DNA of 64,000 bases from Porodaedalea pini (lineage: Eukaryota > Basidiomycota > Agaricomycetes > Hymenochaetales > Hymenochaetaceae). The stretch spans positions 333,444 through 397,443 of the forward strand of contig NBAY01000043.1 in NCBI GenBank assembly GCA_002794775.1, in the 5' to 3' direction. The position numbers and the translations under genes are program-made. Positions 4,849 to 30,685 of the stretch are shown piece by piece. Each line of letters opens with the position of its first letter. Positions within the stretch are counted from its first letter, which is position 1. The notes below the pieces were generated by a model. The model did not search any database. It was not told where the DNA came from and worked only from the letters and a program-made list of their open reading frames with translations.

Positions 4849-6367
4849 TCATTGGATCAACGAACTGTGAGTGCTCCTCAGCTGCAGCTCCACTTCATCC
4901 GGCCAACAATCTTTCTCTTTGCCATATTCATACAGCCTCTGCCTGAGTAGCAAACCATCGGGGCTGTTCAGCCACAGATAGAGATGACAAACAACAGTGT
5001 TCACAAGCAAAATTGGCATTCTGTTTTTAGAGACAGTGAGAATCGAAGCTGAAGAACAGAAACGACAGTTGAGATACGTATGCAATGCCTAGAACAGCTA
5101 TAGGGGCCTGTGTGAGATGAGAGTTACATGAGCACCATCATTTCCGGATTGATTCTGAACTTACCGGGGCAGCGACAGTGATGAGCAAGGACAGGATGCG
5201 AAGACCTGAGGGTTTAGAACCATTCTCAGAAAGGAAGTACACATGCACACTTGGAACTTAACTTACCGAATGTCATCTACACTCCTTGGGTAAGAATAGT
5301 ACAAAGGCGCAACGAGCAAGCAACGACTCACAATGAAAAATACGAGGCCGTCTCCCCAAAGCAAACTCAAAAGACTCTGAGAAGTAGAACGAGGCCGTGA
5401 CATAGCATTGAGGAACAGCAGCAGAGACCAATATAGTTCCAAAATGACCTATTGACAGCGTAAGTTGAATAGTCCCTTATGAAGAGAGGACGCGTTACTG
5501 ATGGGATGAATATGCCTTTAAATGCATGAGGATCCACACTAGAGACGCACATCTGAATGCTATCAATCTCAAGAAGTCAAAATGCTCCTTTTGTAGCCAA
5601 GTCAACTACCAGTTCTGCTCAGTATTTTTTTGGTCCTTGTACCTTGCAGCTGCGTGATGGCAAAAACCATTGCAATGATGGTGCTAGAATGGACAAGCAC
5701 GAAACTGATGGTCATCATTCTAAGCACATTCTTGCTACTACCCCAAAGCTTTACAAGCTCGTTGAGTACAATTGCTTCAAATTTCATCTGGTGAGAGGCC
5801 TTAGAATCATATTGTCTAAAGCTTACCATTTCTGACGGTTTCAAGTAGGACTGTCAGAGAAACAGACACTATCCCAGCACGTGTGCACCTGAATGATGAA
5901 GATGTTGATAGTCAGTATTCTCTTCCACATCACATCTGTGTCAAGGCGAGGCGTCGATGTTCTACTGATGTAGCTGTCAAAAAAACATGAAATAGCAAAG
6001 GTGAGAAGGAAGACTCACCCATTCTTTAGAATAATCCCATAATGGAATTAGAACTTCAGTATAAACGGCGTACGTGAGCATCTAATCCGGACTGTGCAAG
6101 TACTGGGACATACATGCTAGGAAGAAGGCTGCCCCAATGATAGTGTTGTAATGGTAAAATGTAAACACGGTCTTTGATAAAGTCTGTTTCCATGCATTCC
6201 ATATCACTTTTGCCTCATCGTCCCAAGTCAGGAGAATATCGTACAAAAGGACTGTTAGTCCAACAACTAATGCGAAGAAAATTAGACACAGCTGTATCTC
6301 AGTAGTAGAATGCAAACTCACATGTCATATACCGAACATCGATGAACTGCCCTACTGTGACAGCCAT
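4849..6367 (-). CDS. DUF6533-like integral membrane protein (multi-exon)
   Basis: The second coding block (6290-6082) has the pattern I associate with the N-terminal domain of basidiomycete DUF6533 proteins: a hydrophobic helix, then LLYDILLTWDDEAKVIW, a basic stretch, and a helix starting FTFYHYN. These are multi-helix membrane proteins of unknown role. A plausible start is the ATG at 6367-6365 (MAVTVGQFIDVRYM), followed by a short intron beginning GTGAGT. Further hydrophobic blocks lie at about 5844-5602 and 5552-5367. The last block (5085-4849) ends in a hydrophilic tail closing with TGA. Several phase changes show that introns separate the blocks, and I could not fix every splice site. 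Alone in its orientation relative to the gene on its left, on the same strand as the genes on its right. Confidence 0.6.
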
Positions 6368-12132: not shown

Positions 12133-12275
12133 TGTTAGGACTTGAACTTTCACCTTTTCTTTTACTTTTCTTTTACCATTTCTTTTCTTTTAACCACTCC
12201 TTTTCATTATATTTAATCGTCTTTTCAATCATTTCCCACACTCCCTCCACATGACCTTCATTTGTTCCATTCCGT
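12133..12275 (+). repeat. element A 5' LTR, left piece
   Basis: Matches the first 143 bp of the 3' LTR at 28728 with very few differences. It is interrupted at 12276 by the TGTAG start of element B. The last four bases, CCGT (12272-12275), recur at 23030-23033 on the other side of B. Confidence 0.95.
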
Positions 12276-13210
12276 TGTAGAGCTGTGCCGATCGTCCCAT
12301 CACCACCGATCACTCCAGAAGCATTCAAGAACTGGTTCCGACGCGTACCGATCAGTACCGGACTCAACCCGATCGGTCCGGTCTCGAATCAGAACCTCGC
12401 GATCGTGTCATCAGCACGTTCCGACACCTCCGAAAGCATACCGGAACGTACCGGAGATCTTATCTCGACGATTAGGGACGTGGTCACATGGAGCATACAG
12501 CCAAGACGCGTACCAGACTGCTGTCCGACGACGGGAGCCACGTACCGATTGGACGATCTGAGTTCCGGTGGAGCACCGGTGTGATCGGACGCGAAGTGGA
12601 CGTTTTCCTCATTATGATTTATGTTTTTTCCTATGTTCTTCTGATTTCTATGCACTCTATGCACGCCTCTATGACCTTTGACTTTTCCTTTCGACTTCTC
12701 TATGTTTCGACTGATATGCACAGTATGCCCGTATGGAAATTATTAACTGTAGATAGATCTTTGGACTTAGTATAAATAGGCACCCCATGTCGTAGGTAGA
12801 GGACAAGTCAGTTCTACCGCAGAGTCTCCCTCAGATAGGGTAACTTGGGTGCGATCCGTCTTTGTTCTCGTAATCTTGTAGTCGTTCCGTCTTCGTCTTA
12901 GCATCTCGTCTTTCGAAACCGTCTCTCGTCTCATACTTCGTAACTCGAACCTCACCGCTCGTCGTGATCACATCGTTCCGGTGATTGATAACCCGCACGT
13001 ACCGACTCCGTACTGGTCAAACCACAGACGCAACAGGAGTTCCCGACCTTTGTTCTCGAAATCAACACGTACCGGCACGTACCGAAGCGTACCGACGCAT
13101 ACCGGTACGTCGAGTAATCTCACCGCAGTCTACCCCTAACCTCCCAGAGCAACACGATCACGTCCCCAAAAGGACCGTTGATCCCAGACACCCCTAAGTC
13201 AGGATCTACA
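12276..13210 (+). repeat. element B 5' LTR (935 bp)
   Basis: Same length and sequence as 22095-23029 apart from CpG transitions. Contains a TATA-like box at 12771-12778 (TATAAATA). About 290 bp downstream, at roughly 13064-13112, is a dense cluster of CGTACCG/CGGTACG units. Ends AGGATCTACA. Confidence 0.95.
12771..12778 (+). promoter_or_regulatory. TATA box of the B LTR
   Basis: TATAAATA in the middle of the LTR, repeated unchanged in the 3' LTR at 22590-22597. The position suits an LTR RNA polymerase II promoter, with U3 to the left and R-U5 to the right. Confidence 0.6.
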
Positions 13211-13212
13211 AG

Positions 13213-13229
13213 TGGAGCCCACCGCGAGG
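13213..13229 (+). other. element B primer-binding site
   Basis: TGGAGCCCACCGCGAGG lies two bases after the 5' LTR. It starts with TGG, as expected for pairing with a tRNA 3' CCA end. Element F has almost the same site at 53315 (one base different over 17). I cannot name the tRNA. Confidence 0.6.
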
Positions 13230-13718
13230 GGGTTAAACGTGTCGCGATCCTCTCGTCCACCGCGTTCGTTGTGTGGGACATCTCAGCAGACTATTGAACC
13301 CCCTCATCCATATCGAACCGCTAACGCTTGGCAGCGTAGACGCCGTATCGAAGAGCACGCTACGGATTTGGATTCAGAGTCCATAGAGCGTTACCTTGAT
13401 TCGGACTTAGAACAACTTAACACGTCATTCGACTCCGGAGCGCAGTCTCCCTTCTCATTAATCAGCTCGTCCGCAGTCCCGTCGACAGTCCCCTCAGCCC
13501 CGTTGACTAGCTCGTCACCACTAACCGAGCTCGAGAGCGACAACCCAGACGATACCACTCAGCTCGTCTTACCGGATCCTAGTTCGTCCGTACCGGGACA
13601 GACGTCTTCGCCCGTCGGTACGTCGTCAGTTCCGTCGAACCCAGTTAACACACAGGCTACGCGGCCCCGGACATTGACCATAGTAGCTCCGGTACAGCCA
13701 GTACCCCCAGTAAGAATC

Positions 13719-15716
13719 ATGTCAAACCGTCCTCCACGTCGCAGAGCCAGAGACGCTCCCTTCTTCGATGGACACAACCCGTTAGACCTTCCTCAGTACT
13801 TCGAGGATATCAAATATATCGCGACCGACTGCAACTTAGACGACGCGGCAAAGATCCGGTATGCGAAGTATTACACTTTGAGTTCCGTAGCTGAGCTGTG
13901 GGATACTGCCGATGGTGTCGGTACGGGAGCAAACAATTGGACGAAGGCGAAAGAGGTGATTATAGTGTTCTACCCGGCATTGGCGCCCGGCATGCGCTTC
14001 ACCCGGGAAGACCTCGACAGGCTCGTCGAAGGTTGGAGGAGTAAAGGAATACAGTCGAGGGAGGATTTCGGAGAGTATAAGAGAGAGTTCATGGTGAGGT
14101 CAAAGTATTTGGAACGTAACTTGATCGTTTCAGCGGAGGAAGCAGCACACGCGTTCGTTCAAGCCTTTACGGGCAAGATGAAGGACAGGTTACAGCAACA
14201 CCTAGAAATGAAGGAGGCTGACCCGTCCCCGGGCAAACCGTATATGATCGATGTGGTGGTAAAGCACACGGACTACATCCTGGCCGGTACGGTTTTCGAC
14301 GACGTACCGACGACTCGAGCGCCTGACCCGTCGAATCAGTCAAAGGTAAAGTCGGAGGAAGTGGATATCGGTACGGTGTGGGAAGCAGTCAAGAACATTC
14401 AGGTTCAGGTACAGTCACTCGGGCAAAGACCGCCGCCAGCGACGACGTCCCAGAGGAGTCCTGGGTGTGCGTTCTGTGGCGACACGAGCCACTACATTAG
14501 GTTGTGCCCGAAGGTGCTGGAGTATATCCAGGCAGGCAAGTGTGTGAGGGATGCGAACGGGAAGGTGATGCTACCGAACGGAGGGTTCGTACCGAGCACG
14601 GCGGTGGGTAATAATTTGATGGAAAAGATAGACTCGTTGCGTCAGGAGACCAGTACAGCCTCGGTTAACCTCATAGAGGTAGCGACGTCGACAACAACGG
14701 GCACCGAAGTGTCGGAAGGCCCAGCGATGATGGCCGAAATTGTGGAGGAAGTATCGGACGAAGAGTTGGAAGTGGCGCAGTACGAAACATTGTTGAATGA
14801 AGCAAAGAAGCGAGCGTCGGCGGTGAAGAAAGCCAAGTTCGATGGAGTCGAGATACCGGTACGACCGAAACCCGGTCCAGCGAACGTACCGACGACCTCG
14901 AATGCGAAACTGAGTGTACCGAAGCCAGCGGGTAACCCGAACGTCCCCCAGGAGAGCCAATCGACGACGAATTTGGGCGGGAACCAGCCACAGTTCCGGT
15001 ACGTCGCTCCAATCGAGGATCCGGCGACGGTTCAGAAGGTATTGTCGAGGATGTTAGACTCGGCGGTAACGGTCACACAGAGGGAGCTCCTCGCTCTGTC
15101 TTCGGATATGAGGTGGCAGATGAAAGAATTGACAACAGCAAAGCGGTACGCGGTCGGTAACGTCAACCTTGTCGAGTCGGACCAGGAAGGGAGCGAAGTC
15201 GCGGAGTACCGAGCGGTACCGGAGTCGTTGGCTCCGGTTCTCTTAGAGTCGGGACCGGCGGCACACGACGTGCTTCCCATCCGCGTAATTAAGGTATTGA
15301 TTGAGGACGCCGTCGAAGCAGAAGCCATACTTGATCAAGGGGCAGTGGTGTGCATCATTCGGGAAGACGTGTGGGAGAAGCTAGGAATTCATTTAGATCC
15401 GGATCACGCGATGACGCTCGAAGCCGCAGACGCGGGGAAATCGTCGACATTGGGAAGGATTCGAGACACCAGATTCAGGGTAGCGGGTGTGGATTTGAAG
15501 TTGCAGGTTCAGGTGGTTTCGGTGGCGCCGTTCGAAGTATTGTTGGGGCGACCATTTTTCGCTCTTACCGAATGCGGAACGAAGGATTTCTTGTCGGGCG
15601 ATCAGCATATAACCATCACGGATCCCCGAGATCGGAATCGTAGGAGCAAGGTGTCGACCGGTATCTGGGCGTTCTGGCGCGCTCCAGAATCGGGTTTTCA
15701 CAAGTTGAGGAACTGA
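13719..15716 (+). CDS. gag: element B Gag-protease polyprotein
   Basis: The frame is open from the end of the LTR (13212) to a TGA at 15714-15716, but the first ATG is at 13719 (MSNRPPRRR); the roughly 170 preceding Ser/Pro-rich codons may be translated from a non-AUG start or be leader. A Gag-like helical region (about 13740-14290) contains the DLPQYFEDIK and YKREFMVRSKYL patterns. A CCHC zinc knuckle follows at about 14468-14510 (CAFCGDTSHYIRLC). An acidic linker leads to an aspartic protease-like domain (15280-15600) with D-Q-G-A at the catalytic position, in place of the commoner DSG, and a downstream LLGRPFF. No premature stops. Gag packages element RNA; the protease matures the polyprotein. 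Confidence 0.85.
   Translation: MSNRPPRRRARDAPFFDGHNPLDLPQYFEDIKYIATDCNLDDAAKIRYAKYYTLSSVAELWDTADGVGTGANNWTKAKEVIIVFYPALAPGMRFTREDLDRLVEGWRSKGIQSREDFGEYKREFMVRSKYLERNLIVSAEEAAHAFVQAFTGKMKDRLQQHLEMKEADPSPGKPYMIDVVVKHTDYILAGTVFDDVPTTRAPDPSNQSKVKSEEVDIGTVWEAVKNIQVQVQSLGQRPPPATTSQRSPGCAFCGDTSHYIRLCPKVLEYIQAGKCVRDANGKVMLPNGGFVPSTAVGNNLMEKIDSLRQETSTASVNLIEVATSTTTGTEVSEGPAMMAEIVEEVSDEELEVAQYETLLNEAKKRASAVKKAKFDGVEIPVRPKPGPANVPTTSNAKLSVPKPAGNPNVPQESQSTTNLGGNQPQFRYVAPIEDPATVQKVLSRMLDSAVTVTQRELLALSSDMRWQMKELTTAKRYAVGNVNLVESDQEGSEVAEYRAVPESLAPVLLESGPAAHDVLPIRVIKVLIEDAVEAEAILDQGAVVCIIREDVWEKLGIHLDPDHAMTLEAADAGKSSTLGRIRDTRFRVAGVDLKLQVQVVSVAPFEVLLGRPFFALTECGTKDFLSGDQHITITDPRDRNRRSKVSTGIWAFWRAPESGFHKLRN
15692..15698 (+). 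promoter_or_regulatory. candidate -1 ribosomal frameshift site, GGGTTTT (element B)
   Basis: In the gag frame it reads tcG GGT TTT cac, an X XXY YYZ slippery heptamer 16 nt before the gag stop. The pol frame is exactly -1 and is open from this point through the RT region. The A/C/D family has the same heptamer in the same place. Confidence 0.65.
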
Positions 15717-18700
15717 CGCAGCGGTGCCGGCGAGACAAGTGGAAACAGACAGTATGCGAGACGTGCCGTGGAGTCGATCTGTCGGTACGCGTACCGAGCT
15801 CATGTACAGACGTTTTATCTTTGCGTTTTAATGACCCCGATTATTTATCTCGTCGTCCAACCCCTTCTCAAACCAAAATTAATTCTCAATTTGTTCAACC
15901 CATTTACAGTTTTCAACAAATGTCCCCTAATGTTTTAAACCAATCCGATTCGACTATTTCCCGTTACGTTTCCCCAAATTTTACCTTGAATACCCCAGCT
16001 CCATTTATTTATTCGCAGAGATTGAACTTTCTTTTATCTCCTTGCACCGTTGCTTTGGACGCTTCTTCGGACACTTTTGGTTCGGTGGTGCTGGATTCGA
16101 CGGAGGATGAAGGAAGTGTTTTGGTGTACAAGCGGGTGGCGCAGAAGGTCCGTCCCATACCGGGAGTGTTGCCGGAGGAGTTTCGTATAGTTCGAAGGCG
16201 ACATCCCGATCCGTTGGCCGACATGCCAAAGTTACCGACGAAACTGGTATCGTTCGTACCGATGGGAAAGTTTACGCAGGAAAGGCTGGACGTGATGGAT
16301 TTGGACCCAGGCGGATTTCTGTGGGACGAAGAGAAGAAGTTGGTGGTGAATCTGATCATGTTGCAGGAAGGGGCGTTTGCGTGGTCGGAGACGGAGAGAG
16401 GGACCTTAGATCCGACGTATTTCGATCCAGTACGCATACCGATGGTGGCGCATGTACCGTGGGTACGGAAGAACATACCGATCCCCCCTGGGATACTTGA
16501 AAAGACGCTAAACATACTCAGGGAGAAGATCGCCGCCGGAGTTATCGAACCGTCGAACTCGTCGTACTGCTCGAGGTGGTTTTGTGTGGTAAAGAAAGAC
16601 AGAGTGTCCTTACAGTTCGTTATTGACTTGCAGGATCTGAACGGAGTGACCATTCGAGACTCGGCCGTACCGCCGGACATCGAGACACTAGTAGACGCGT
16701 GCAGCGGGCGCGCGTGTTACACGGTACTTGATCTCGCTGTTGCTTTCAACCAGCGAATGCTCGATGAACGGTCCCGAGACTTAACGACGTTCCAGACCCC
16801 GCTCGGTACGTTTCGACTGAAGGTGTTACCGATGGGATACACGAATTCGCTGCAGATTCTCCATGGAGACATCACATTTATTCTCAGCGACGAAATTCCT
16901 AAGGTGGCGCAGCCGTTCACGGACGATGTAATTACGCAAGGAGGGTTTACACGGTACGAGCGTACCGATGGAGGGTTCGAAACGATTCCCGAGAACCCGG
17001 GCATCCGCCGGTTCGTCTACGAACACTTGTGCGACGTAAATTGAGTGCTGCAGAGGATGAGGAAAGTGGGCGGTACGTTTTCCGGGAAGAAATTCCAGGC
17101 GTGTACTGATTCGGCGATATTTTTGGGGAATAAACTCACGTACCGAGGGCGCGAACCGGACGATTCGAAGGTTCAGAAGGTGCGGGATTGGCCCCCATGT
17201 CGAACGGTGATGGAGGTGAAAGGATTTCTCGGTACGGTTGGAGTGTTGAGGGTGTTTATTAAGGATTTCGCGAAGAAAGCTCGACCATTGACCCGACTTA
17301 CGCGTAAAAACAACATATTCGATTGGGGACCGGAAGAGCAGGATTTGATGGACACATTGAAGGAAGCGGTTATCGACTGCCCGGCACTGTGCGCGATCGA
17401 CTACGGGTCGGACAGAGCAGTTATCTTAGCAGTGGATTCGTCGATCATAGGAGTAGGGTGGACGTTGGGCCAGGATCACCCGGACGGTAGGAGAAGGATT
17501 AATTGGTTCGGGTCGATCAACTGGAACTCAGTACAGGCAACGTACTCCCAGCCGAAGATCGAGTTGTTCGGGTTGTTTAGGGCATTGAGGGTGGTGAGGT
17601 TGTTTATTTATGGAGTTAAGCTCCTGGTGGTCAAGATGGACGCTGCGTACATCAAAGGGATGATTAACAATCCGGATCTACAGCCAAACGTGACAATAAA
17701 CTGGTGGATTGCAGGAATTCTCCTTTTCGACTTCGAGCTTCGCCACGTACCAGCCACAGAATTTACGTGTACCGACGGACTGTTGAGACGGCGAGCCGTG
17801 CCAGAGGACCCCCAAGAAGAAGACGGCTATGAAGAATGGATCGATGCAGCGTATGCATTTTTGTATGGAGCGGTGTTGAGTACCGACGTCGAGGAAGGGC
17901 CCGGTACAGCCACAGATCCTCAGGGGCAGCGATTTCCAGCCTCAGATTCGGTAAAGTCGCGAGATAAGCGATTAGAGTTGGTTCGGTACCTCCTCGAACA
18001 CGGAAGGAAGCCCTCGGAGATCGACGAGAAGCACTTTCCCTCGTTCGTCCGGTACGCCTCCGGATTCTTCGTGCGAGCAGGACGGCTTTGGTGAAAGACC
18101 TGACGAGAGCATCCCCAGCTGGTCGTCGAACAGGAATGCCGCTGGTCGCTCGTCCAGCAGGCTCACGATGATCTCGGACACAAGGGAGTGTATTCGGTAC
18201 GCGCTTGGTTGCTGGATCGGTTTTGGTGGCCGTCGATTTCAGAGGACGTCAAATACTTTGTGCGTACGTGTCATATCTGTCAGGTGCGCCAGACCACGAA
18301 AGTGTCGATACCGCCATCGGTACCGGACGTACCGACATTGTTTGCCCGGATCCACATCGACACGAAGCACATGCCCGCTTCAGGAGGCTTTCACTACATC
18401 GTACATGCACGGTGCTCCTTGTCCAGTTACCCGGAGTTCTGACTGTTACGAAAGCAGACTGGTCACACGATCGGGCAGTTCATTTTTCAGGAATTACTGT
18501 GTCGGTACAGCGCGTGTCCCGAACTTGTTACCGATAATGGTACTCCGTTTATCGCTGCGCTTGATTGGTTGCGGGATCGGTACCACATTTCGCACATCAA
18601 GATCTCGGCGTATAATTCTCAGGCCAACGGGATCGTCGAACGACGGCATTACGACGTCCAGGAAGCCTTGATCAAGGCAGCCGACAGGAATGCATCCAAG

Positions 18701-19321
18701 TGGCATGAGCACGCTTACTCGGTTTTCTGGGCCGAGCGTATCACAATCCAGAAATCGACCGGTATGTCGCCGTACTACATGGTTCATGGAGTCGAGCCAG
18801 TACTTCCCTTTGATCTCGCCGAGGCCACTTATCTTGCTCCGCCGTTGGATTCCCCGATGCGTACCGAGGAACTGATAGCGACCCGGGCGCGCCAGTTACA
18901 GAAGCGTCCGGTGGACCTTGATAGGATCGCGCAGTTGGTTCGAGATGCTCGACACAAGTACGCTAGACAGTTCGCCGAAGTCCATAAGCACGTCATCAAG
19001 GACTACGATTTCCAGCCCGGTCGACTCGTACTTGTGTGGAACACCCGGATCGAAAAAGAGTTGGACCGAAAGACGAAGGCCCGGTACTTGGGACCATACG
19101 TCATCGTCCGTAGGACACGTTCCGGAGCGTATATCATCTCGGAACTCGATGGATCGGTTTCCCGGATTCGGGTTGCAGCTTTTCGTCTCATTCCTTATTT
19201 TCCCCAATCTGACATTTCTGTTCCCCTTGACGAAATCCTTCGACAGGATGACGACGAACATAGCATGATGAAGGAAGATCTGGTAGAAGAAGACAGCTCT
19301 GAGTCGGACTCTGATACCTAG
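15692..19321 (+). pseudogene. pol: element B Pol (RT, RNase H, integrase), broken by four TGA stops
   Basis: One continuous frame interrupted only by TGA at 17042-17044, 18092-18094, 18101-18103 and 18440-18442. At least the first falls where this family has Arg (DVNRVLQRM pattern). RT spans about 16470-17140, with VLDLAVAFNQR for the first catalytic Asp and PFTDDV (about 16914-16931) for the second motif. The RNase H-like region (about 17390-17800) includes LAVDSS. The integrase has a zinc-binding H..H..CHIC segment (about 18170-18290). Its catalytic residues are in IHIDTKH, VTDNGT and NGIVERR, so D, D and E are retained. The C-terminus is Asp/Glu/Ser-rich and ends in TAG. There are no frameshifts, so this is a recently disabled copy. 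Confidence 0.88.
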
Positions 19322-19742
19322 TCGCGAATTCTGATTATGTTTGCCATCCAAGGTATCGGTACGCGTACCGACACGTACCGACGCCTCCTTATTTTATTAT
19401 CTTTTAATCAATTATGATCCAATTATGTTTTAACCATGGAACCGTTTACATTCTTTCATACGGAACTCTTTCTCGATTATCGAAACATTAAATATATGGC
19501 CTATCTTCGATTTCCCCTTCGGTACAATAGTAAAATCACAAACGGACACTTAACGATGACCTTTCCTTTTCTTATTCTCTTCGTTCTTTCATTTTTTCAC
19601 ACCCAAAAACTTAAAGAAAACAAAAGAAAAATCCATATTCAAAAATATATACAAATAAATTACTACACTTTGTATTATTTTTCTTTTTTTCTTTTTCTTT
19701 CTGCAGGACCAAGTCGTACCGACGCGTACCGACGCGTACTGA
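19322..19742. other. spacer between B pol and the accessory gene 3' end
   Basis: T/A-rich and pyrimidine-rich tracts (19550-19710) are bracketed by GTACCG clusters at 19357-19386 and 19711-19740. It holds the converging 3' ends of the sense pol unit and the antisense gene. Confidence 0.5.
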
Positions 19743-22038
19743 CTAGTCCTCCTCCTCCTCCCTTGCGCCCCACTTCCCCTTCTCAAGTGCCGCAAGGCGC
19801 GCGCGGATTGAGGCCGCTTCGGCCGCCTGACGAGTCGCCTCCGCAGCGAGTCGACGCGAGCTACGCCCGAGCTCGCGGACGTCGCGCACGAGCTCCGCGA
19901 CGATGTGGTCGAACTCATCTTCGGAGTCGTGCTCCGAGACGAGCTCGCGCAGGTCCTCGTATGCGCCGGCGAACTGGCTTGGACCTGCGACGGGCGGTGA
20001 GGCAGCGCGGCCCCTCTGTTGCTGCTGCTGCTGCCGCGGTACGCGTGTGGCAGCAGGCCTCGGTACACAAGGCGGTGGGGATGGCGTGTCCACCACGATC
20101 AGAGAAGCCGGCGCGGGCGGCGCAGACGACGCAGATGGCTGCGGCTGTTGCTGCTGCTGTTGCTGCTGCTGCTGCGGTGCCTTAGGCGCAGCGCGCGGTA
20201 CGCTCTCGTCGCGGGCGGCACGTTTCCGCTTTCCACCCGACTTTCTGCCCCGGACCTCCTTCGCGTGTCCCTGGGTTGCCAGCGAGCACCCCGTCCACCA
20301 GACGACCATGCAGAGGAAGCAAGCCCTACCGGGCTGCCCCTGACACGTTCTCCCCCGACGTGCGCAGTTGGCGCACGCTTCCTTGAGAGGGACCGGCAGC
20401 GGTCCCGCCCACCGTAGACGACCGGTCGCCGGGTTGACCAGTTCGACCCCGTCGAACACGGTGACCGAGGGACCCGACGTACCATCGGTACGCCCTTCGT
20501 CTGCGTGGTGGTATGACGAACCACCACCCTCTGCCTCCATCGATATGGGGGCGGGCTCAGCTGGAGCGAGACGCCCCTCCACCTCTTTGACTGGCAGCTC
20601 CCAGCGTTGCTTCATGTGAGGGCCCCCACGACCTCGCTCACGCGCTCGACGTGCGCCTCCTCCACTCTCCCGATGACCGCGCGCACGCGCCCGACGTGTC
20701 GCTTCCGCCTGCTTCCAAGCCTCTTCCTGAGCGGCTAACATGGCAGCGAGACCGGCTTCGTCTCGCGCCCGCTGCTCGGCTTCGTGCTCTGCGGCTGCCT
20801 CCATCTCGAAGAATAGTCCCCCAGGCGCATTCGCTGGGGGCGGGACACTTGACGCCGTGCTCGGCGTGGGTTGTTGCTGCTGCTGTTGCCGCAGCGGCTC
20901 CTCGCATGGTCCGGTACGCGTTCCCTCCTCGTCGTCAGATGCGATCTCGACGGTCGTACGCCATCGCCACTTGTCGGCACCCGTCTGCTGTTGCTGTTGT
21001 GCGGACGGGGCGTCACCAGTACGCGGTACGCCGGACCTCTCCTCGCGCATCGCGCTCGCCTCGACTTCGCGCGGACCCGTCTGCTGTTGCTGTTGCGCAG
21101 ACGTGGTACCATTGGTACGTGGGACGGTGCGCTCCTCCTCCTCGTTCACGACCTCCTCGACCTTGGGCGGACCAGGCGTTTCGAGATGTTCGACGAACGC
21201 CTCGACTGCCGGTACAGCCAACAGGACCCCAACGAAGTGCGGTTGTGCCTCACGCTCCACGGGGTAGACGAACTTATACCCATACCCGTCAGGTACGAGT
21301 ATGCGCTCGAGCTCTCCGCCAATGTACGGTACGTCATCCGGCCAGTCCGCGACCGGTACGACGAATCCCTCACCCTGGTACTTGGTGAGGTTGACCGTCT
21401 GGTGGTCGGCGAAATACCGACCGTAGAGCTGGTCGGCGGTGGACTTGTCGAGCCCATCCAGCGCCCACCGCATCTCCTTCCAGACCCACGTGACCTGGAG
21501 GTACGTCCGCAGATCAGACGCGATCGGGTGGCGGTTCGCCAGCACCACGGAGTCCCAGTAGAGCTGGTAGTAGCTCTCCAGGGTGTGCTATTTCGAATTG
21601 GTCAGCTCGGTATGCGTGCTTGATCAAGTTTCGAGGACTCACCTTCATGCCGTATGCCCACTCGGCCCACTTCCACCATTTGCCGATCTCGCAACCCCGA
21701 CTCCCCGCCAGTAACGTCTCCCGCCATTTCACGTACCGCCCGAGGCGACGTCGCACGTACCGGTCGATGTCGACCAGCCGTTGCTCGATCTCGCGGGTGT
21801 CCCACGTGATCTTCTCACGCTCAACGGCGCCGACGTTGTCGATGTACCCTGGTACGTGGGGTGCCTTGCACGCCAGCCGAGGTGGCGCCGTGCTGTTGCT
21901 GTTGCTGCTGCTGTCGCGGTGCGGAGACAACATGGTTGGAAGAAGCAGGAGAAAAACCCGTCGGTACGACCACTTTTCCAACGCCCTCTCTAGCGTGTTC
22001 CGACGCACGTGATCAGCGTGATCAAGCTTCTTGCGCAT
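19743..22038 (-). CDS. antisense accessory protein of element B with a Zn(II)2Cys6-spaced cysteine cluster
   Basis: Two exons: 22038-21643 (132 codons from ATG) and 21587-19743 (614 codons plus stop), giving 746 residues. The 55-bp intron (21642-21588) has GTGAGT..TAG and a GCTGACC branch-like motif. Residues 1-330 are globular-looking and Trp/Tyr-rich (KWWKWAEWAYGMK, YFADHQTVN). Then come Gln-rich linkers and a charged helical block (about 405-470). The cysteine cluster C-X2-C-X6-C-X7-C-X2-C-X7-C falls at 537-566 (CANCARRGRTC...CFLC...C) and matches fungal Zn2Cys6 spacing. A basic nuclear-signal-like segment (RGRKSGGKRKR), two poly-Gln runs and a C-terminal coiled-coil-like tail follow. There is no signal peptide or membrane anchor, which argues against an envelope protein. 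The likely role is nuclear DNA or RNA binding; the target is unknown. Its promoter should lie in or next to the 3' LTR, firing toward pol. No stop mutations despite the broken pol. Confidence 0.8.
20288..20375 (-). other. Zn(II)2Cys6-type cysteine cluster within the accessory protein
   Basis: Six Cys with spacing 2-6-7-2-7. The region between Cys 2 and Cys 3 is basic (ARRGRT), as in true Zn2Cys6 DNA-binding domains, but the segment before the last Cys is Trp-rich (MVVWWTG), which is atypical. It lies in the C-terminal third of the protein rather than at the N-terminus. Confidence 0.65.
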
Positions 22039-22080
22039 ATCAAAAGAAGAGAAGGCGTGACTGGGGACAGTCACGATTTA

Positions 22081-22094
22081 AACGCCCCGGGAGA
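22081..22094 (+). other. element B polypurine-like tract before the 3' LTR
   Basis: AACGCCCCGGGAGA abuts the TGTAG start of the 3' LTR. Family F has a similar GGCCCCCCAGGAGA in the same place. It is a plausible plus-strand primer site, although the purine run is short. Confidence 0.45.
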
Positions 22095-23029
22095 TGTAGA
22101 GCCGTGCCGATCGTCCCATCACCGCCGATCACTCCAGAAGCATTCAAGAACTGGTTCCGACACGTACCGATCAGTACCGGACTCAACCCGATCGGTCCGG
22201 TCTCGAATCAGAACCTCGCGATCGCGTCATCAGCATGTTCTGACACCTCCGAAAGCATACCGGAACGTACCGGAGATCTTATCTCGACGATTAGGGACGC
22301 GGTCACATGGAGCATACAGCCAAGATGCGTACCAGACTGCTGTCCGACGACGGGAGCCACGTACCGATTGGACGATCTGAGTTCCGGTGGAGCACCGGTG
22401 TGATCGGACGCGAAGTGGACGTTTTCCTCATTATGATTTATGTTTTTTCCTATGTTCTTCTGATTTCTATGCACTCTATGCACGCCTCTATGACCTTTGA
22501 CTTTTCCTTTCGACTTCTCTATGTTTCGACTGATATGCACAGTATGCCCGTATGGAAATTATTAACTGTAGATAGATCTTTGGACTTAGTATAAATAGGC
22601 ACCCCATGTCGTAGGTAGAGGACAAGTCAGTTCTACCGCAGAGTCTCCCTCAGATAGGGTAACTTGGGTGCGATCCGTCTTTGTTCTCGTAATCTTGTAG
22701 TCGTTCCGTCTTCGTCTTAGCATCTCGTCTTTCGAAACCGTCTCTCGTCTCATACTTCGTAACTCAAACCTCACCGCTCGTCGTGATCACATCGTTCCGG
22801 TGATTGATAACCTGCACGTACCGACTCCGTACTGGTCAAACCACAGACGCAACAGGAGTTCCCGACCTTTGTTCTCGAAATCAACACGTACCGGCGCGTA
22901 CCAAAGCATACCAACGCGTACCGGTACGTCGAGTAATCTCACCGCAGTCTACCCCTAACCTCCCAGAGCAACGCGATCACGTCCCCAAAAGGACCGTTGA
23001 TCCCAGACACCCCTAAGTCAGGATCTACA
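22095..23029 (+). repeat. element B 3' LTR (935 bp)
   Basis: Collinear with 12276-13210 with no indels that I can see. The differences are transitions at CpG, for example ACGTGG/ACGCGG, CTCGAAC/CTCAAAC and CCCGC/CCTGC. It contains the same TATA box and GTACCG cluster, and by position could also drive the antisense gene. Confidence 0.95.
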
Positions 23030-23338
23030 CCGTTCATTTATGTAACTTTAGATAATATAGTCCCATGGTTGCCAGCTATATAAGGTCTCAGGAATCGCAT
23101 CAACTCCTTGTTCTGCTTTTCCTCTTACCTCTGTGACAACCTAGGTGAGACTCGCCCCCCTTGTATTAGTTTAGACTTGTATTAATTCTCTTACCTCCGC
23201 GACAACCTAGTCTGAGTAAACCTGCTGCCCGAACTTCGCATTTGAGATACAGCCCATCCCAGACAATGTCTGTGTCACCGTCAGGTGCCGCACATTGAGG
23301 TTGCCTAGTCTGAGTTCCACCCAGACTTCCACCTAACA
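23030..23338 (+). repeat. element A 5' LTR, right piece
   Basis: Begins with the duplicated CCGT and continues the A LTR exactly where the left piece stopped, ending CTAACA at 23338. Compared with 28874-29175 the differences are mostly C/T or G/A at CpG. Confidence 0.95.
23077..23120 (+). promoter_or_regulatory. element A TATA box and self-primer sequence in the LTR
   Basis: TATATAA (23077-23083) is followed 27 bp later by GTTCTGCTTTT (23110-23120), close to the expected transcription start. That 11-mer is the exact reverse complement of the segment just after the LTR (23340-23350). The 3' LTR has the same pair at 28914-28920 and 28947-28957. Confidence 0.75.
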
Positions 23339-23339
23339 T

Positions 23340-23350
23340 AAAAGCAGAAC
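23340..23350 (+). other. element A self-priming primer-binding site
   Basis: AAAAGCAGAAC starts one base after the LTR end. It does not start with TGG like a tRNA site. It is perfectly complementary to the presumed RNA 5' end, the arrangement known from the Tf1/sushi group of Ty3/gypsy elements. Conserved in C (49682-49692) and D (58929-58939). Confidence 0.75.
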
Positions 23351-23874
23351 CCCACCCAGGCTCATCCCCAGTGTACGTCGTCGCTGTTGACTCGCCTTCA
23401 CTCAGTCTAGAGGAGCACTCCCCTCGACGGATTTGAAGTGTAAACCCCCTAAACAACAACCCTCAACCCTGCCCAGACATTTTCGGATGTTCGTGTATTA
23501 CATAAACTTTTCAACCGACTTTTCCCAACCCTGGCTCTCCGCATCTCCCTCTGGTGGAGGAGCCACTTAACTTGGACATGGGTGACGTTATGTGTTCAGT
23601 CGTCAACATCATTGTCAATTGTTATCTCTGCCGCGTCTTTCCGCCTCATCATCAACTTCGCCAACGAACCCGTTCAACGTTGGCATAACCCCAGATCAAA
23701 TGCACAACCAATCCCCATTCCTCCACCATCATCAAGATAGATCTCACCAACGAACAGTGACAGGCCCTTCCTGCATCAGCCCGTTGGGATCCAGACCGAC
23801 CAAGCTACGTCGCGACCAACAATAGTGGTGTTACACATGAGATCTGGTGGAGTGAGATCCGGCATAGCTGGTAT
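23351..23874 (+). other. element A leader before the recognisable gag
   Basis: Leader similar to 58940-59460 of D and 49693-50300 of C. In-frame coding-like sequence of gag (IDLTNEQ, ARWDPDRP) starts about 23735 without an ATG, so the true gag start is uncertain. Confidence 0.5.
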
Positions 23875-25131
23875 TTGACGAATGAAGAAGGAAGGAGAGC
23901 TAGGTGGCCCCCAGCCGTCCCGTCATCACCTGCACCATCGACATCCACCATCAACCTACCGCCGACTCCAGGACCATACCGGGAGACCAATAGGGACCTG
24001 TCACCCCCGACTCCCCCTGAACCTTCAATGCCGACGATCAAACCAGAAATGTCAACAGGGGGTTTCAGTCAGCAGCAGATGGAGCAGATTGCTGCAATCG
24101 TCACAGGTGCCTTTGCCCATCAAGCGAACAACGCCCTGGCACCGGTCGCTGCAGCCAATCCCCTGACCCCTAGTATTGACGTCACCTGGCCACGTGAATT
24201 CACTGGCAGCGATGATTATCTAGACTTCAAATGCAAAGTCCTTCTTTTCATCTCGGCAAACCTGAACTGATACCCCACGTTGGAAAGTAAGATCTATGTT
24301 GCTCTCTCCTACTTAAAGGGAGGCAATGCAGTGACGTGGGTGCAGAACTACGTGGAGGAGTCGATGACAGCTGGCATTGTGACCTTCACCGATAGCTGGG
24401 TGAGATTCCAGGAACACCTGGACGCCTCGTTTGATGACCCAAATCGGAAGGAGAAGGCGCTAGCGAAGTTCCGAACAAAGGTTCAGAAGGATCTCACCAC
24501 TGACGAGTTCTTCCAGGACCTCGATGTCGTCATCACAAGAGCAGGACTGACAGACGACAGCATCATCTGTGACCGTCTAAAGCAAGCAATGAACATCGAG
24601 GTGGTATGAGGAGTGCTGAGGTCGATGCCAGTCCCAACAACATATGATGCCTGGAAGAAGAAGGCCATTGAGATCGACTGAGGCGAGCAACAAATCCAGG
24701 CAATCCAGCAAGGTCGTACATTCCCACTTCCACCATGCCAGCAGCAGCAACAGGCACCCCCGGCTCACCGTCAGAACGCAGCCCCCCATGTCGACAAACG
24801 TGATGTGACTGGTGTCACTTTCGGAGGTGCCAGCCAGCCGATGGATGTCTCAATGAATGAGGTGCAATGCAGACGCGCGTGCTGGATCTGTGGCCAACTG
24901 GGTCACTTCAAGGATAAGTGCCCACAAGGACAGGGAATCATGCAGCGTATGCTGCAGATGATGGTGCCCGGTGAACATCGCCTCCTCACTGACGAGCTAG
25001 GCGCGATGAAGGAATCGGCATTCGAGGAAGTCGTAGACACTCAAAGATCGACAGTGGAGGACTATGTGGAGGAGGAAGGAGATGACGAAGAGGTCATCAA
25101 CTCGCAGGGTTTTGCAAGTGGTCAGGCATAG
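23875..25131 (+). pseudogene. gag: element A Gag, broken
   Basis: Equivalent to the intact D Gag (59638-60720). A Pro-rich N-terminus leads to the conserved MSTGGFSQQQMEQI and FTGSDDYLDFK segments. A capsid-like helical region (24280-24610) and a CCHC knuckle (CWICGQLGHFKDKC, about 24880-24922) follow. The acidic C-terminus ends in TAG at 25131. TGA interrupts the frame at 24268, 24607 and 24679, in each case where D has Arg (RY, VRGVL, IDRGE). Confidence 0.88.
25107..25113 (+). promoter_or_regulatory. candidate -1 frameshift site GGGTTTT (element A)
   Basis: cag GGT TTT gca in the gag frame gives G GGT TTT, 15 nt before the gag TAG. The pol frame is -1 and open across this point. Confidence 0.65.
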
Positions 25132-28100
25132 CCATCAGGGCGACTGACCGAGTAGAACAAGGGACTTTGAATCTGGATCCGTTAAAATATAACCAACCGT
25201 CTGTACAATACATAGATGCAAATGACGTTGATGGTTTTCCTGATTACGAAGTCCCCACCGGTGTGAACAAGGATAGCGAGTACGATCAGCTGTTCATGAG
25301 GGGAACTGGTGGACACCAGCTGGACCTCCTCCTGAATGTCAGATGTAATGTGGAGGGTGAGATAAGGGAGGTGGATGTGCATGCCCTCATGGATTCGGGG
25401 TGTATGGGATCATGCATTGATGTGAGGTTCGTTGAACGACACGGGTTGGAGACCAAGCGCTATATCAGACCCCTTGCGGTGCTCAATGCGGACGGCACAC
25501 ACAATGAGGCCGGTCTGATCGAGAAATATGTCGACGTCGAGCTAATGATTGGACACCACAAGGAAAGGATTGTCCTTGCTGTAACATCCCTAGCATCTTT
25601 GAACATCTTCCTTGGCTATGACTGGCTTCGATGCCACAACCTGGAGGTCGACTGGAAGACAGGTTCAATTGAATTCACCCGTTGCCCGGAGGAGTGTGTG
25701 ATCAAGAAGAAGGTTGTGGAGGAGATGAGGAGGGTGAGAGAGGTGCAAATGGACAAGGCATCCTGGCCCGCATACCTCAACGACTTTGCCGACATCTTCA
25801 GTGAGAAAGGCTTCGAAAAGCTACCGGAACATTGCCCCTGGGATCACATCATCGACTTGAAACCTGACTTCAAGCCTAGCATATGCAAGATTTATCTGCT
25901 GACGCCGACAGAACAGCAGTCACTGAAGGACTTCCTCGAAGAGAACCTGAAGTCGGGCCACATACAAAAGTTGATCTCACTGATGGTGTCGCCCTTCTTT
26001 TTCATTAAGAAGGCCGACAAATCGCTACGCCCGATCCAGGACTACTGTAAACTCAACGACGGCACGATCAAGAACAAGTATCCTCTCCCCCTCATCGACG
26101 AACTGGTCGACAAGGTCAAGAAGGTGAAGTTCATCACCAAACTTGATCTTCGCTGGGGATACTACAATGTCCGGATCTGAGAAGGCGATGAATGGAAGGC
26201 AGTGTTCCACATGAACATGGGTCTTTTTGAACCGACAGTCATGTTCTTTGGCCTTTGCAATGCACCGGTGACGTTCCAGGCTTTTGTCAACCACATCTTC
26301 AAGGGACTGATCTACGATAACTTGATCATTGTCTATCTCGACAATATACTGATTCTCTCACAAACTCTCGAGGAACATATCGAGACATCGAGATGAGTAC
26401 TTCAGATCCTGCGAGAAAATGGTCTATACCTGAAGCCCAAAAAGTGCGAGTTCGACACTAAAGTTGTAAAGTACCTCGGCCACATCATCGGAAATGGCGA
26501 GATCAGGGTGGACCCGGCGAAGACAGAAGCAATTGCAGACTGGCCAGTTCTGTGAAACCTCAAACAGCTGCAACAATTCCTTGGCATGGGCAACTGGCTG
26601 CGATGGTTCATCAAGGACTACAGCAAAGTGGTCCATCTGCTGATGTTGCTGACAGGCAAGAAGGACTGGGTATGGGAGACCAAACAGCAGGAGGCGTTCG
26701 AGGAGTTGAGACGACGTCTCTGCTCACCTCCAGTCCTGGCCATCATGAACGATGAGGGACCTTTCCATATCGAAGCGGACTCATCAAACTTTGCGCTTGG
26801 AGGCATGTTGTTGCAGAAGCAGGAAGGCAAGTGGAGGGTAGTCACCTACAGGTCAGAAGTGCTCCTGCCAGCGGAACGAAACTACAAGATCTACGACAAG
26901 GAGATGCTCGCGATCATTTCGGCACTCAAGGAATGGAGACAGTACCTTCTTGGCGCCCGTCACAAGATTGAGATCTGGTCTGACCACACCAATCTCACCT
27001 ACTTCAGGTTGGTGCAGAAGCTGAGCTATTGCCAAGCTCGCTGGCGGACAGAGCTCAAGGAATTCGACTTCCACCTTGAGCACAAGTCAGGGAAGACGAT
27101 GGGCAAGGCGGACCTACTGTTGTGCAAGGCTGGCTGTGACGAGGGCAAGGATGACAATAATGGCATTGTGTTCATCAAGAAGAAGTGGCTAAATCGTGGG
27201 GTGGTGAGGATGTCACATGACGAGGTGTTGGAACGAGTGGGTGAGGCGCAGAGGGTGCAGAACGAGTCGGAGAGGCCAACAGGGATGATGGAGAAAGACA
27301 GTTTATGGCGGATGAAGGGCAAGGTATACATCCCGTCGACGATAAAGGAATCTGTGTTGCAGGAGTGTCACGACTCGGTACTGGCTGGGCATCCAGGAGC
27401 CTCGAAAACAGTAGAGCTTGTCCATCGAGACTTCTGGTGGGTGTTGATGTTCTCTGATGTCCAAGCATATGTCCAAGGGTGTGATCGTTGTCAGTGAACA
27501 AAGGCTCTGAGGGCGTCGAGGTCAAGGCCACTTCACCCGAATGCAGTCCCTGAAGGTCCTTGGGAAATTGTTACAGTCGACCTCATCGGAGAGCTCCCAG
27601 ACTTGAAGGGACATAATGCAATCTGCGTCTTCATGGATAGATTCTCAAAACAGATGCACGCAATCCCGACAATGACAAAGCTGTCAGCGGAAGGCATGGC
27701 TCAGTTGTACCGCAACCATGTCTTCCGCCTCCATGGCCTACCAAAGAAGATTATCCATGACCATGGCACGCAGTTTGACACGTCGATGATGAAGGAGCTA
27801 TACAAACTCCTGCACATCGAAGGCAACCCATCAACGGCATATCACCCGCAGACAGACGGTCAGACGGAACGCGTTAACCAAGAGCTCAAACAGTACCTTA
27901 GGCTCTTCATTAACCATCGGCAATCGGACTGGAAGGACTGGCTCCCCCTTGCAGAGTTTGCATACAACAACCGCGAACACTCGGCAACAAAAATGTCCCC
28001 CTTCTATGCAAATACAGGACGTCACCCTCTAAGCTTCAACACGATGTGAACCTCCTATACCAACATGTTGGCAGAAGAATTCACGAAGCACATCAAGGAG

Positions 28101-28714
28101 ACTCATCGTGTCGCAAAAGACAACCTGATCAAGGCAGCTGAGGACATGAAATGCTACCATGACTGAACAGCAGGGACGTCGGTGGAGTACCAGCCCAGTG
28201 ACAAGGTCTTCCTCGATGGTTGGAACATCAGCACAGATGCACCGACAAAGAAGCTAGCAGACAAGTGGTACGGACCCTTCGAAATTGTCAACAAGGTGGG
28301 CACAAGCACGTACAAGCTCAAACTCCCCAAGCGATGGAAGAAAGTCCACCCTGTCTTCAACAAAGCCCTGTTAAAACCTGCTATCAAACCATCCTTCGAA
28401 GGCCAGAAGCAGCAGCCACTGCCACCACTGGAGATTGTTGACAATGAGGAGGAATACGAAGTCAAGGAAGTCATCAACTCACGTCTGCATTGAGGAAAAC
28501 TACAGTACCTCATCAAGTGGGTCGGATACAACGAACTGACTTGGCAGCCTGAGACAGATTTCGGTGAGAATGCAAAGGAGGCGATCACTGAATTCTATCA
28601 AAAACACCCCGGCACTCCTAGAAGACTCAACATTCCTTGCCAACGACTCTGTCCACTCTTCGTCGACACTGAACCAGACAACCATGATCTTCATTGGTTG
28701 GGACGCCCAACCTT

Positions 28715-28724
28715 GAAGGGGGGG
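28715..28724 (+). other. element A polypurine tract
   Basis: GAAGGGGGGG three bases before the 3' LTR, overlapping the last pol codons. Confidence 0.7.
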
Positions 28725-28727
28725 TAA

Positions 28728-29175
28728 TGTTAGGACTTGAACTTTCACCTTTTCTTTTACTTTCCTTTTACCATTTCTTTTCTTTTAACCACTCCTTTTC
28801 ATTATATTTAATCGTCTTTTCAATCATTTCCCACACTCCCTCCACATGACCTTCATTTGTTCCATTCCGTTTGTTTATGTAACTTTAGATAATATAGTCC
28901 CACGGTCGCCAGCTATATAAGGTCTCAGGAATCGCATCAACTCCTTGTTCTGCTTTTCCTCTTACCTCCGCGACAACCTAGGTGAGACTCACCCCCCTTG
29001 TATTAGTTTAGACTTGTATTAATTCTCTTACCTCTGCGACAACCTAGTCTGAGTAAACCCGCTGCCCGAACTTCGCGTTTGAGATACAGCCCATCCCAGA
29101 CAATGTCTGCGTCACCATCAGGTGCCACACATTGAGGTTGCCTAGTCTGAGTTCCACCCAGACTTCTGCCTAACA
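28728..29175 (+). repeat. element A 3' LTR (448 bp)
   Basis: TGTTAG..CTAACA, uninterrupted, with TATATAA at 28914 and the self-primer 11-mer at 28947. Followed by the ATCAT duplication at 29176-29180. Confidence 0.95.
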
Positions 29176-29828: not shown

Positions 29829-30685
29829 CTTACAGCCTTTTTCATAAGTCCTGCGACACGTGCATGTCATGTGAAATGAGCCGCGTCAGAGCCAAAGTGT
29901 CGAAAAATTAGAATGAATGCCTATTTTCTCTATAAATTCTGCACAGTACCTGCTCATTAAGTACTCAAAAGAAAGGCATGGTTCTCAGGAGAATAAATAT
30001 GTAAAATATGGAGAAATAAATTGACTGTGAAGGCAGGTGGAGATCAAACAAGTGCAGCTGGTCTGTTCTCTCACCCATTTCCACTGAGATTCAAAAATTA
30101 TGGCTCCCCTACATCTACCTATAAAGTTCTTTCCTGTGTCTGTAAATTAAGTATATGACTATACCAACATCTCCTGAAAGTTTGAAGCCAATCCATTCAG
30201 TATTCATGGTGCAGCAGCAAGATTTGTGTTCTACTCTGCAAGACCTGTTGTGAGAAAAGGAGGGTGCAAAGAGCTTGAAGTAGAACACAAATCTTGCTGC
30301 TGCACCACGAATACTGAATGGATTGGCTTCAAACTTTCAGGAGATGTTGGTATAGTCATATACTTAATTTACAGACACAGGAAAGAACTTTATAGGTAGA
30401 TGTAGGGGAGCCATAATTTTTGAATCTCAGTGGAAATGAGTGAGAGAACAGACCAGCTGCACTTGTTTGATCTCCACCCACCTACACAGTCAATTTATTG
30501 CTCCATATTTTACATATTTATTCTCCTGAGAACCGTGCCTTTTTTTTGAGTACTTAATGAGCAGGTACTGTGCAGAATTCACAGAGAAAATAGGCATTCA
30601 TTCTAATTTTTCGACACTTTGGCTCTGACGCGGCTCATTTCATGTGACATGCACGTGTCACAGGACTTATGAAAAAGGCTGTAAG
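29829..30685. repeat. 857-bp foldback element with two 407-bp inverted arms
   Basis: Arm 29829-30235 is the near-exact reverse complement of arm 30279-30685, separated by a 43-bp loop. The ends read CTTACAGCC..GGCTGTAAG, compatible with CAG..CTG termini and a TA target duplication. Only a few mismatches were seen along the arms, plus small changes such as AAAAGAAAGG/AAAAAAAAGG. No coding capacity. It is either a hairpin-type MITE (Tc1/mariner-like if TA is right) or two inverted copies of a short element. Confidence 0.88.

Follow-up and report, generated by a model that had tools for sequence, protein, structure and literature searches.

Accessory genes that run against gag and pol are known from several long terminal repeat (LTR) retrotransposons. 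Among fungi, the Boty-like elements of Botrytis cinerea reportedly have an additional antisense gene, brtn, which is said to go back to Zhao et al. in 2011. In the available parts of the papers cited in this paragraph, the gag-pol of Boty carries a chromodomain (PMC4227169), and the Retand elements of plants, which belong to the gypsy group, have an antisense gene for a TRP28 (PF04195) protein between pol and the 3' LTR in 97% of clusters, with predicted DNA binding and a proposed role as a regulator (PMC11963269). Grande (with gene23), RIRE2, and PvRetro13 have antisense open reading frames of the aORF-3R class in this same place; nuclear location and an own promoter are reported for gene23, and the function of the antisense accessory genes of plant LTR retrotransposons is called unsettled (PMC7264820). 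In HTLV-1, the antisense, spliced gene HBZ lies at the 3' end of the retroelement and encodes a regulator that inhibits Tax-dependent activation (PMC1459196). Here we describe an antisense gene in a gypsy retrotransposon of the basidiomycete Porodaedalea pini. It lies in a stretch of 64,000 nucleotides (the window: contig NBAY01000043.1 of assembly GCA_002794775.1, positions 333,444 to 397,443), and coordinates below are those of the window.

The gene is borne by the element, has a fixed position, is common to five gypsy families of this genome, has conserved splice signals, and is constrained at non-CpG sites. Judging from these comparisons, it is almost certainly a selected, element-encoded, antisense protein gene. 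On whether its predicted product is a DNA-binding regulator of the element, we are evenly divided.

A preliminary description of the window had placed a two-exon frame with a 55-bp intron between pol and the 3' LTR, on the opposite strand. This agrees with the end of the integrase and with the LTR at 22095-23029. When re-read, exon 1 runs from 22038 to 21643 (396 nt), the intron from 21642 to 21588 (GTGAGT...CTGAC...ATAG), and exon 2 from 21587 to 19743, including the stop; joined, they give the 746 codons that had been described. The start codon has to be revised, however. ATG 21933 is kept in 22/22 copies and ATG 22038 in only 6/22, so the protein most likely starts at 21933 and has 711 residues, with 21934-22038 as its leader. 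(These are the copies with exon 1, the window's included; 8 of the 30 loci introduced below were left out.) In 6/22 copies, there is an upstream stop in the frame of ATG 21933. The gene had also been called intact, which is right for the antisense gene but not for the pol of the same copy: pol is split into four frames, whereas the antisense gene is open. (In exon 2 of this copy, the remaining five frames contain 4-15 stops.) The reported cysteine cluster, C-X2-C-X6-C-X7-C-X2-C-X7-C, is present at residues 537-566 of the 746-codon frame, and none of 5000 shuffles of the exon 2 residues gives this spacing.

We then searched the genome, which has 53.3 Mb in 201 contigs and is the one genome considered here. 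(The whole-genome searches score only the best candidates, so all counts are lower bounds.) Exon 2 has at least 42 DNA matches and at least 71 protein matches. Of 30 loci around protein matches (L009-L038; family I, to which the window copy belongs), 22 have the 3' LTR as the immediate 5' neighbor of exon 1, oriented as expected. The other family I loci are cut, nested, or rearranged, and at L033, the LTR pieces point the other way. The integrase piece of the family was seen at 18 of the 30 loci and is on the strand opposite to the antisense gene in 18/18. We looked for the intron in 26 copies and could read it in 24; all 24 have GTGAGT...AG, with a length of 55 nt in 23 and 54 nt in one. We used 13 full-length, one-frame copies of exon 2 for selection tests. 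Eight of these are free of stops, and the cluster cysteines are unchanged in 8/8 of the open copies and in an aligned copy from family II.

Five diverged gypsy families in the genome carry an antisense gene with a cysteine cluster downstream of the integrase, and the furthest of their integrases are about 50% identical. Family II (L039, L040, and L045) was found via two weak protein matches and is about 30% identical to family I in the aligned part. Its cluster is CDQCLMRGIECTGTPGKACTSCRRLRIRC, it has its own 51-nt phase-0 intron, and its start and donor words are equally spaced in L040 and L045. Families III (L041 and L042, with the cluster CDACVETGIPCVGIPNEGPCLRCKSSHLAGC) and IV (with CDTCIVVGASCDGVPKSRRCTRCSWNKARC) were reached via integrases near 50% identity; family IV has at least 70 matches, two of which are family III genes. 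In family V (L055), to which integrases near 50% identity also led, the cluster CKRCKAAGKACVGEAGKAACMDCALKKKKC is followed by a leucine-zipper-like end, which matches Pfam's bZIP_2 below the cut-off (E = 0.011; 16.2 bits against 22.3). The motif common to all five families is C-x2-C-x3-G-x2-C-x-G-x(n)-C-x2-C-x(6,7)-C, and 0/5000 shuffles of each family's protein contain either the motif or the looser spacing. Sequence similarity links families I and II (E = 3e-9) and families III and IV (E = 4e-7 and 3e-6).

To count how often the gene accompanies its integrase, we scored it as present if it lay within 4 kb downstream (134 integrase rows, 114 of them with matches of at least 600 nt). At integrase identities of at least 45%, the gene is found in 96 of 103 places, always antisense: in 31/36 at 77% or more, in 21/22 at 53-76%, and in 44/45 at 45-52%. 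Together with the LTR at 22 of the 30 family I loci, this bears out the expectation that homologues lie antisense between the integrase and the 3' LTR. Two of the seven exceptions were read: C113 carries family V, and a nested family I element appears to have interrupted C13. The single same-strand case is among 20 shorter integrase fragments. Below 45% identity, the gene was found in 2/11 places, both of them family IV. For two integrases of this distant group (L043 and L044), there is no antisense cysteine cluster in frames of at least 90 residues within 5 kb. In an unrooted tree of 10 integrases, these two group together with full support, and they do so on the branch that separates I/II from III/IV/V. 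The tree, which is no test of a single gain, would fit one gain of the antisense gene if the root is on the L043/L044 branch.

Is the protein under selection? In family I, the pairwise ratio of nonsynonymous to synonymous rates (dN/dS, by Nei-Gojobori) has a median of 0.46 and a range of 0.37-0.74 across 28 pairs, but these values are biased by many CpG transitions. With a codon model, omega (dN/dS) is 0.63-0.65 for the 8 open copies (at a transition bias, kappa, of 29) and 0.55 for 13 copies (kappa of 16). With omega fixed at 1 and the best of the kappa values tried, the fit loses about 24 and 106, respectively, in twice the log-likelihood. We had read strong constraint from the median of 0.46 and from a comparison to omega = 1 at a kappa of 2. 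This was overstated: once kappa was scanned at omega = 1, the 8 open copies had a likelihood gain of about 24, down from about 650.

The classes of change differ. For four pairs among the 8 open copies, the ratio of nonsynonymous to synonymous changes relative to neutral (N/S) is 0.58 for non-CpG transitions and 0.50 for transversions. In family IV (three pairs, from 6 of 8 loci fetched), N/S is 0.32 for non-CpG transitions, 0.20 for transversions, and 0.76 for CpG transitions. For comparison, the integrase piece has 0.43 for non-CpG transitions, 0.05 for transversions (of which there are only five), and 1.10 for CpG transitions. In the other frames of the same strand, N/S over all changes is 1.06-1.10 for family I and 1.33-1.63 for family IV. 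Split by class, control frame 1 of family I has 1.25 for non-CpG transitions and 1.99 for transversions, and control frame 2 has 1.57 for transitions.

Some results speak against selection on the protein. Most differences between family I copies are CpG transitions, and these have an N/S of 1.02, that is, no constraint. Because of this, many family I copies appear to be decaying freely. Over all changes, family I N/S is 0.89 of neutral in the open copies; when decayed copies are included (five pairs), it is 0.81. Control frame 2 of family I has an N/S of 0.82 for transversions. Finally, the mirror frame on the gag-pol strand has similar pairwise dN/dS (0.42-0.46), yet it has 9-18 stops, and we ascribe its value to third positions facing each other. 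Neutral decay, which the preliminary description had considered fatal to the idea, is thus seen in one class of change in family I, while the non-CpG sites are constrained. These data fit a history in which the gene was under selection while the element was active, after which the inserted copies underwent neutral CpG decay.

Across the genome, stops in decayed integrases are mostly TGA, which is consistent with CpG-to-TpG decay of CGA codons. Most exons of family IV are listed as free of stops, beside integrases with several TGA. We considered whether the antisense gene has special protection after insertion, and we rejected this: five family IV exons have 0-1 CGA per 254 codons, versus 7-8 per 292 in three integrases, which are from family I. 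As TGA arises from CGA by CpG decay, exons with so few CGA codons need nothing special to stay free of stops.

We also examined the region between exon 1 and the 3' LTR. It contains GTGACTNGGGACAGTCAC, which adjoins TTTAAA, 20 nt before the LTR. In the antisense direction, the order is TTTAAA, palindrome, pyrimidine-rich leader, and ATG. All but one of the 27 loci listed have TTTAAA. Both this box and the palindrome are conserved from family I to family II, and the stretch as a whole has 83.6% identity across the two. (Neither of the two family II loci searched gave a match to the family I LTR.) Matches to RTGACTNGGGACAGTCAY number 70 across the genome, and the pattern read backwards has none. 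For most of these (51/70), a family I or II gene is listed on the opposite strand, and the match lies no more than 1.5 kb upstream of it; one match has such a gene on the same strand, and 18 have no gene in reach. From this arrangement, we suggest that the antisense gene has its own internal promoter and possibly an operator. The palindrome might just as well have a role in plus-strand priming or act as an RNA hairpin.

As for the protein, the cysteines of Zn2Cys6 domains are spaced C-X2-C-X6-C-X5-12-C-X2-C-X6-8-C. The representatives of all five families fit this spacing, and none of 5000 shuffles of each does. The earlier label of a Zn2Cys6-type cluster is therefore apt for the spacing, but not by the standard of Pfam, as none of the tested proteins reaches the cut-off for PF00172. 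A structure model from the single sequence, for the C-terminal 318 residues, has a mean pLDDT of 53.8, with 52-58 per block of ten in the cluster region. It supports the C-terminal helix alone and is too weak for a fold search. An NCBIfam search gave nothing significant. Among 5.8 billion predicted proteins, we found nothing at E <= 0.001 for family I exon 2, family II, or family IV (7984, 7991, and 285 candidates scored, respectively, with those for the first two sharing most words and probably dominated by Gln/Glu runs); this is weak evidence, since fungal coverage is unclear and there was no pol control. Scans of IMG/VR with the family IV protein and with the integrase confirmed no relative.

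Overall, the six-cysteine cluster, the basic stretch, the low-complexity linkers, and the helical tail would suit a dimeric nuclear DNA-binding protein. Since the element already makes a Gag knuckle and an integrase, the cluster protein is an extra. We propose that this accessory gene, which has one intron in family I, is transcribed against gag-pol and that its promoter is just internal to the 3' LTR. Its product, with the six-cysteine cluster, the basic stretch, Gln-rich linkers, and the C-terminal helix, would enter the nucleus, bind zinc and DNA via the cluster, and pair via the helical tail. It would then adjust the element's transcription, much as is proposed for the TRP28 proteins of Retand or seen with HBZ. 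This might be by repression or by activation, with negative feedback on the sense RNA as the most likely form. In families I and II, the palindrome between the TTTAAA box and the start could be the gene's own operator. The preliminary description had claimed that the element encodes its own nuclear regulator: the gene is indeed encoded by the element, antisense, constrained at non-CpG sites, and equipped with conserved splice signals, and we predict the regulatory role from these and the features of the protein. A bolder version is that a zinc-cluster regulator of this kind is compulsory throughout a fungal gypsy lineage, each full element having a second transcription unit of opposite direction; that in families I and II, it binds the palindrome between its own promoter box and start, by which the element would gauge and restrain its copy number; and that it is an independently evolved counterpart of HBZ. 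We offer this only tentatively, as it is probably wrong in at least some part.

Several observations weigh against our main proposal, that of a DNA-binding regulator. The best score for PF00172 is 12.2 bits, against a cut-off of 21, and the Pfam scans of families I, III, and V do not list it. PDB sequence searches with three proteins found no solved structure at a significant level (best E = 0.3). The window copy has no basic residue between the fourth and sixth cysteines. A search of up to 500 nt ahead of the start in 6 family IV copies found no perfect palindrome with 7-nt arms. Also, I/II, III/IV, and family V are joined to each other by motif and position only.

The protein could instead be an integration factor, a DNA-binding protein with six cysteines by which the preintegration complex would be tethered to particular chromatin or sites. 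The gene is a neighbor of the integrase, insertions of one element into another occur, and no chromodomain is listed by Pfam for the pol frames of the window (the scan of the 3' end of pol covered the window element only). But nesting is common in regions rich in transposable elements, and a separate antisense unit would better suit a regulator that acts in trans than a component of the virion. We consider an integration factor to be unlikely.

A nucleic-acid chaperone or packaging protein, whose cluster would bind RNA or cDNA as a nucleocapsid-like helper, seems less likely still. The protein is cysteine-rich and basic, and in family I there are basic residues between the second and third cysteines. 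However, Gag already has a CCHC knuckle, and the spacing in all five representatives fits a Zn2Cys6 cluster and not a CCHC knuckle.

We have similarly strong doubts that selection acts on an antisense RNA, which would dampen the sense RNA or give rise to small RNAs, with the protein being incidental. A transcript that overlaps the 3' end could silence the element, and transposon-derived antisense noncoding RNAs are reported from a fungal pathogen (PMC10648671, in the part available). This would not explain why the constraint at non-CpG sites is specific to the frame and to the protein level, why the start codon is kept in 22/22 copies, or why the cysteines are unchanged in 8/8 open copies and in the aligned family II copy. 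An RNA may have a role alongside the protein.

We also think it improbable that the gene is a captured host transcription factor that is just a passenger. Zn2Cys6 factors are common as fungal host proteins, and the intron is of the spliceosomal type. But the gene has one position in five families whose integrases are about 50% identical. The preliminary description would have given way if homologues were only host genes outside LTRs; in four whole-genome protein searches, no match was recognizable as a host gene, with 26 of the 159 gene places, those without a listed integrase nearby, being unread. An ancient capture is a possible origin of the gene. Last, a chance long frame opposite a non-coding 3' region is barely credible: the region is about 65% GC and has several long frames on the other strand, but chance does not account for the constraint, the conservation of the splice sites and the start codon, or the same motif in five families.

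The element itself is a discrete insertion that spans 12276-23029. With two LTRs, a target-site duplication, and the order gag-protease-reverse transcriptase-RNase H-integrase, it is a Ty3/gypsy LTR retrotransposon (Table 1). The empty target site is recognizable, with a few differences, at about 28850-28890, in the 3' LTR of the element that was hit by the insertion. Nested gypsy insertions occupy 12133-29166: the element with the antisense gene sits in the 5' LTR of another gypsy, whose 3' LTR is at about 28728-29166. In the window copy, Pfam finds the protease, RNase H, and H2C2 integrase above threshold, and the reverse transcriptase match is sub-threshold in this broken copy.

Table 1. 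Features of the antisense gene and of the gypsy element that carries it, in window coordinates.
Feature	Position	Strand	Remarks
Target-site duplication CCGTT (5 bp)	12272-12276, partner 23030-23034		Last T overlaps the LTR terminus TG
5' LTR	12276-13210	+	98.3% identical to 3' LTR over 935 columns
gag-protease frame (stop to stop)	13182-15716	+	C-X2-C-X4-H-X4-C knuckle, aspartyl protease, DUF4100 match
pol region (reverse transcriptase, RNase H, H2C2 integrase)	15644-19321	+	Frames 15644-17044, 17045-18094, 18104-18442, 18443-19321
AT-rich spacer, 35% GC	19322-19742		Meeting point of convergent pol and antisense gene
Exon 2, with stop codon	19743-21587	-	
C-terminal long helix	19749-19922	-	pLDDT about 80 here and nowhere else in the single-sequence model
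Basic segment KEVRGRKSGGKRKRAARD after the cysteine cluster	20208-20261	-	Possible nuclear localization signal
Six-cysteine cluster C-X2-C-X6-C-X7-C-X2-C-X7-C	20286-20375	-	
Intron, 55 nt, GTGAGT...CTGAC...TAG	21588-21642	-	
Exon 1 from the conserved start (ATG 21933-21931)	21643-21933	-	ATG in 22/22 copies examined
Upstream part of the earlier exon 1, most likely 5' leader	21934-22038	-	Its ATG in 6/22 copies
Palindrome GTGACTGGGGACAGTCAC	22057-22074		Outer pair C-G here, A-T in family II; candidate operator or hairpin
TTTAAA box	22077-22082	-	Presumed antisense core promoter
GGGAGA purine stretch	22089-22094	+	Adjoins 3' LTR; likely polypurine tract
3' LTR	22095-23029	+	Placed by LTR comparison

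The gag frame at 13182-15716 matches Pfam's DUF4100 above its cut-off (29.7 versus 27.9 bits), so this family of "unknown function" may be part of the Gag of gypsy elements. Elsewhere in the window, an inverted repeat at 29829-30685 (arms of 407 nt that are 97% complementary, with a gap of 43 nt) would be a long, near-perfect hairpin or a nested foldback element, and degenerate 21-nt units are arrayed at 33704-33982. At another locus, L054, positions 3472-4899 (in the element's orientation) have endonuclease- and reverse-transcriptase-like frames that, by eye, look like those of a non-LTR element. Next to these is a gypsy copy of family II, which leads into a gag of family I on the other strand.

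How does this gene compare to the known systems? It had been suggested that an accessory antisense regulator might be undescribed, but antisense accessory genes are already described in gypsy elements (in Grande, RIRE2, and Retand, as well as brtn in Boty). The gene with the six-cysteine cluster would be one more variation on these. Among the titles and starts of abstracts listed, we found no antisense cysteine-cluster gene in a fungal gypsy element, although most subscription papers were outside this coverage. The word "antisense" is absent from "LTR Retrotransposons in Fungi" and from a survey of transposable elements in Laccaria, and the available parts of the Moniliophthora genome paper and of a review of retroviral antisense transcription have nothing on such genes.

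By position, the gene is of the plant aORF-3R type: an antisense frame, downstream of pol and before the 3' LTR, in most copies. As far as the available text on the plant elements goes, it shares this place with Grande, RIRE2, and PvRetro13, whose proteins lack clear similarity to others; the word "zinc" is absent from the main text of that paper (PMC7264820). Retand's TRP28 gene, too, is antisense, lies between pol and the 3' LTR, and is fixed in a gypsy lineage, to judge from the same kind of partial account. It differs in being from plants and in having the TRP28 domain rather than a six-cysteine cluster; PF04195 is not listed in our Pfam scans of the antisense proteins, and neither "zinc" nor "intron" occurs in the main text of PMC11963269. 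Boty with brtn is likewise a fungal LTR retrotransposon with an antisense gene, a likeness by description and not by sequence comparison. Its gag-pol is described, in the part of the account available, as having a chromodomain, which the Pfam scan did not list for the pol frames of the window.

Compared to fungal Zn2Cys6 transcription factors (PF00172), the antisense proteins have the same cysteine spacing in the five representatives and, in families I and V, a C-terminus that is helical or resembles a zipper. They differ in their sub-cut-off or missing matches, in the position of the cluster (middle to C-terminal), in the extra conserved glycines, and in being encoded by a retroelement. In fungal genomes, such frames may have been annotated as host genes of the Zn2Cys6-like kind. 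With five families, many copies in this one genome, a recognizable motif, and a candidate target site, the idea of a regulator can be tested directly.

HBZ offers what would be a functional parallel. Both genes are antisense and spliced (here, by splice signals read from the DNA), but HBZ is a bZIP protein of an animal retrovirus, and its transcript starts inside the 3' LTR. If our proposal is correct, then with the TRP28 proteins of plants and the HBZ of retroviruses, antisense regulators would have arisen repeatedly in retroelements.
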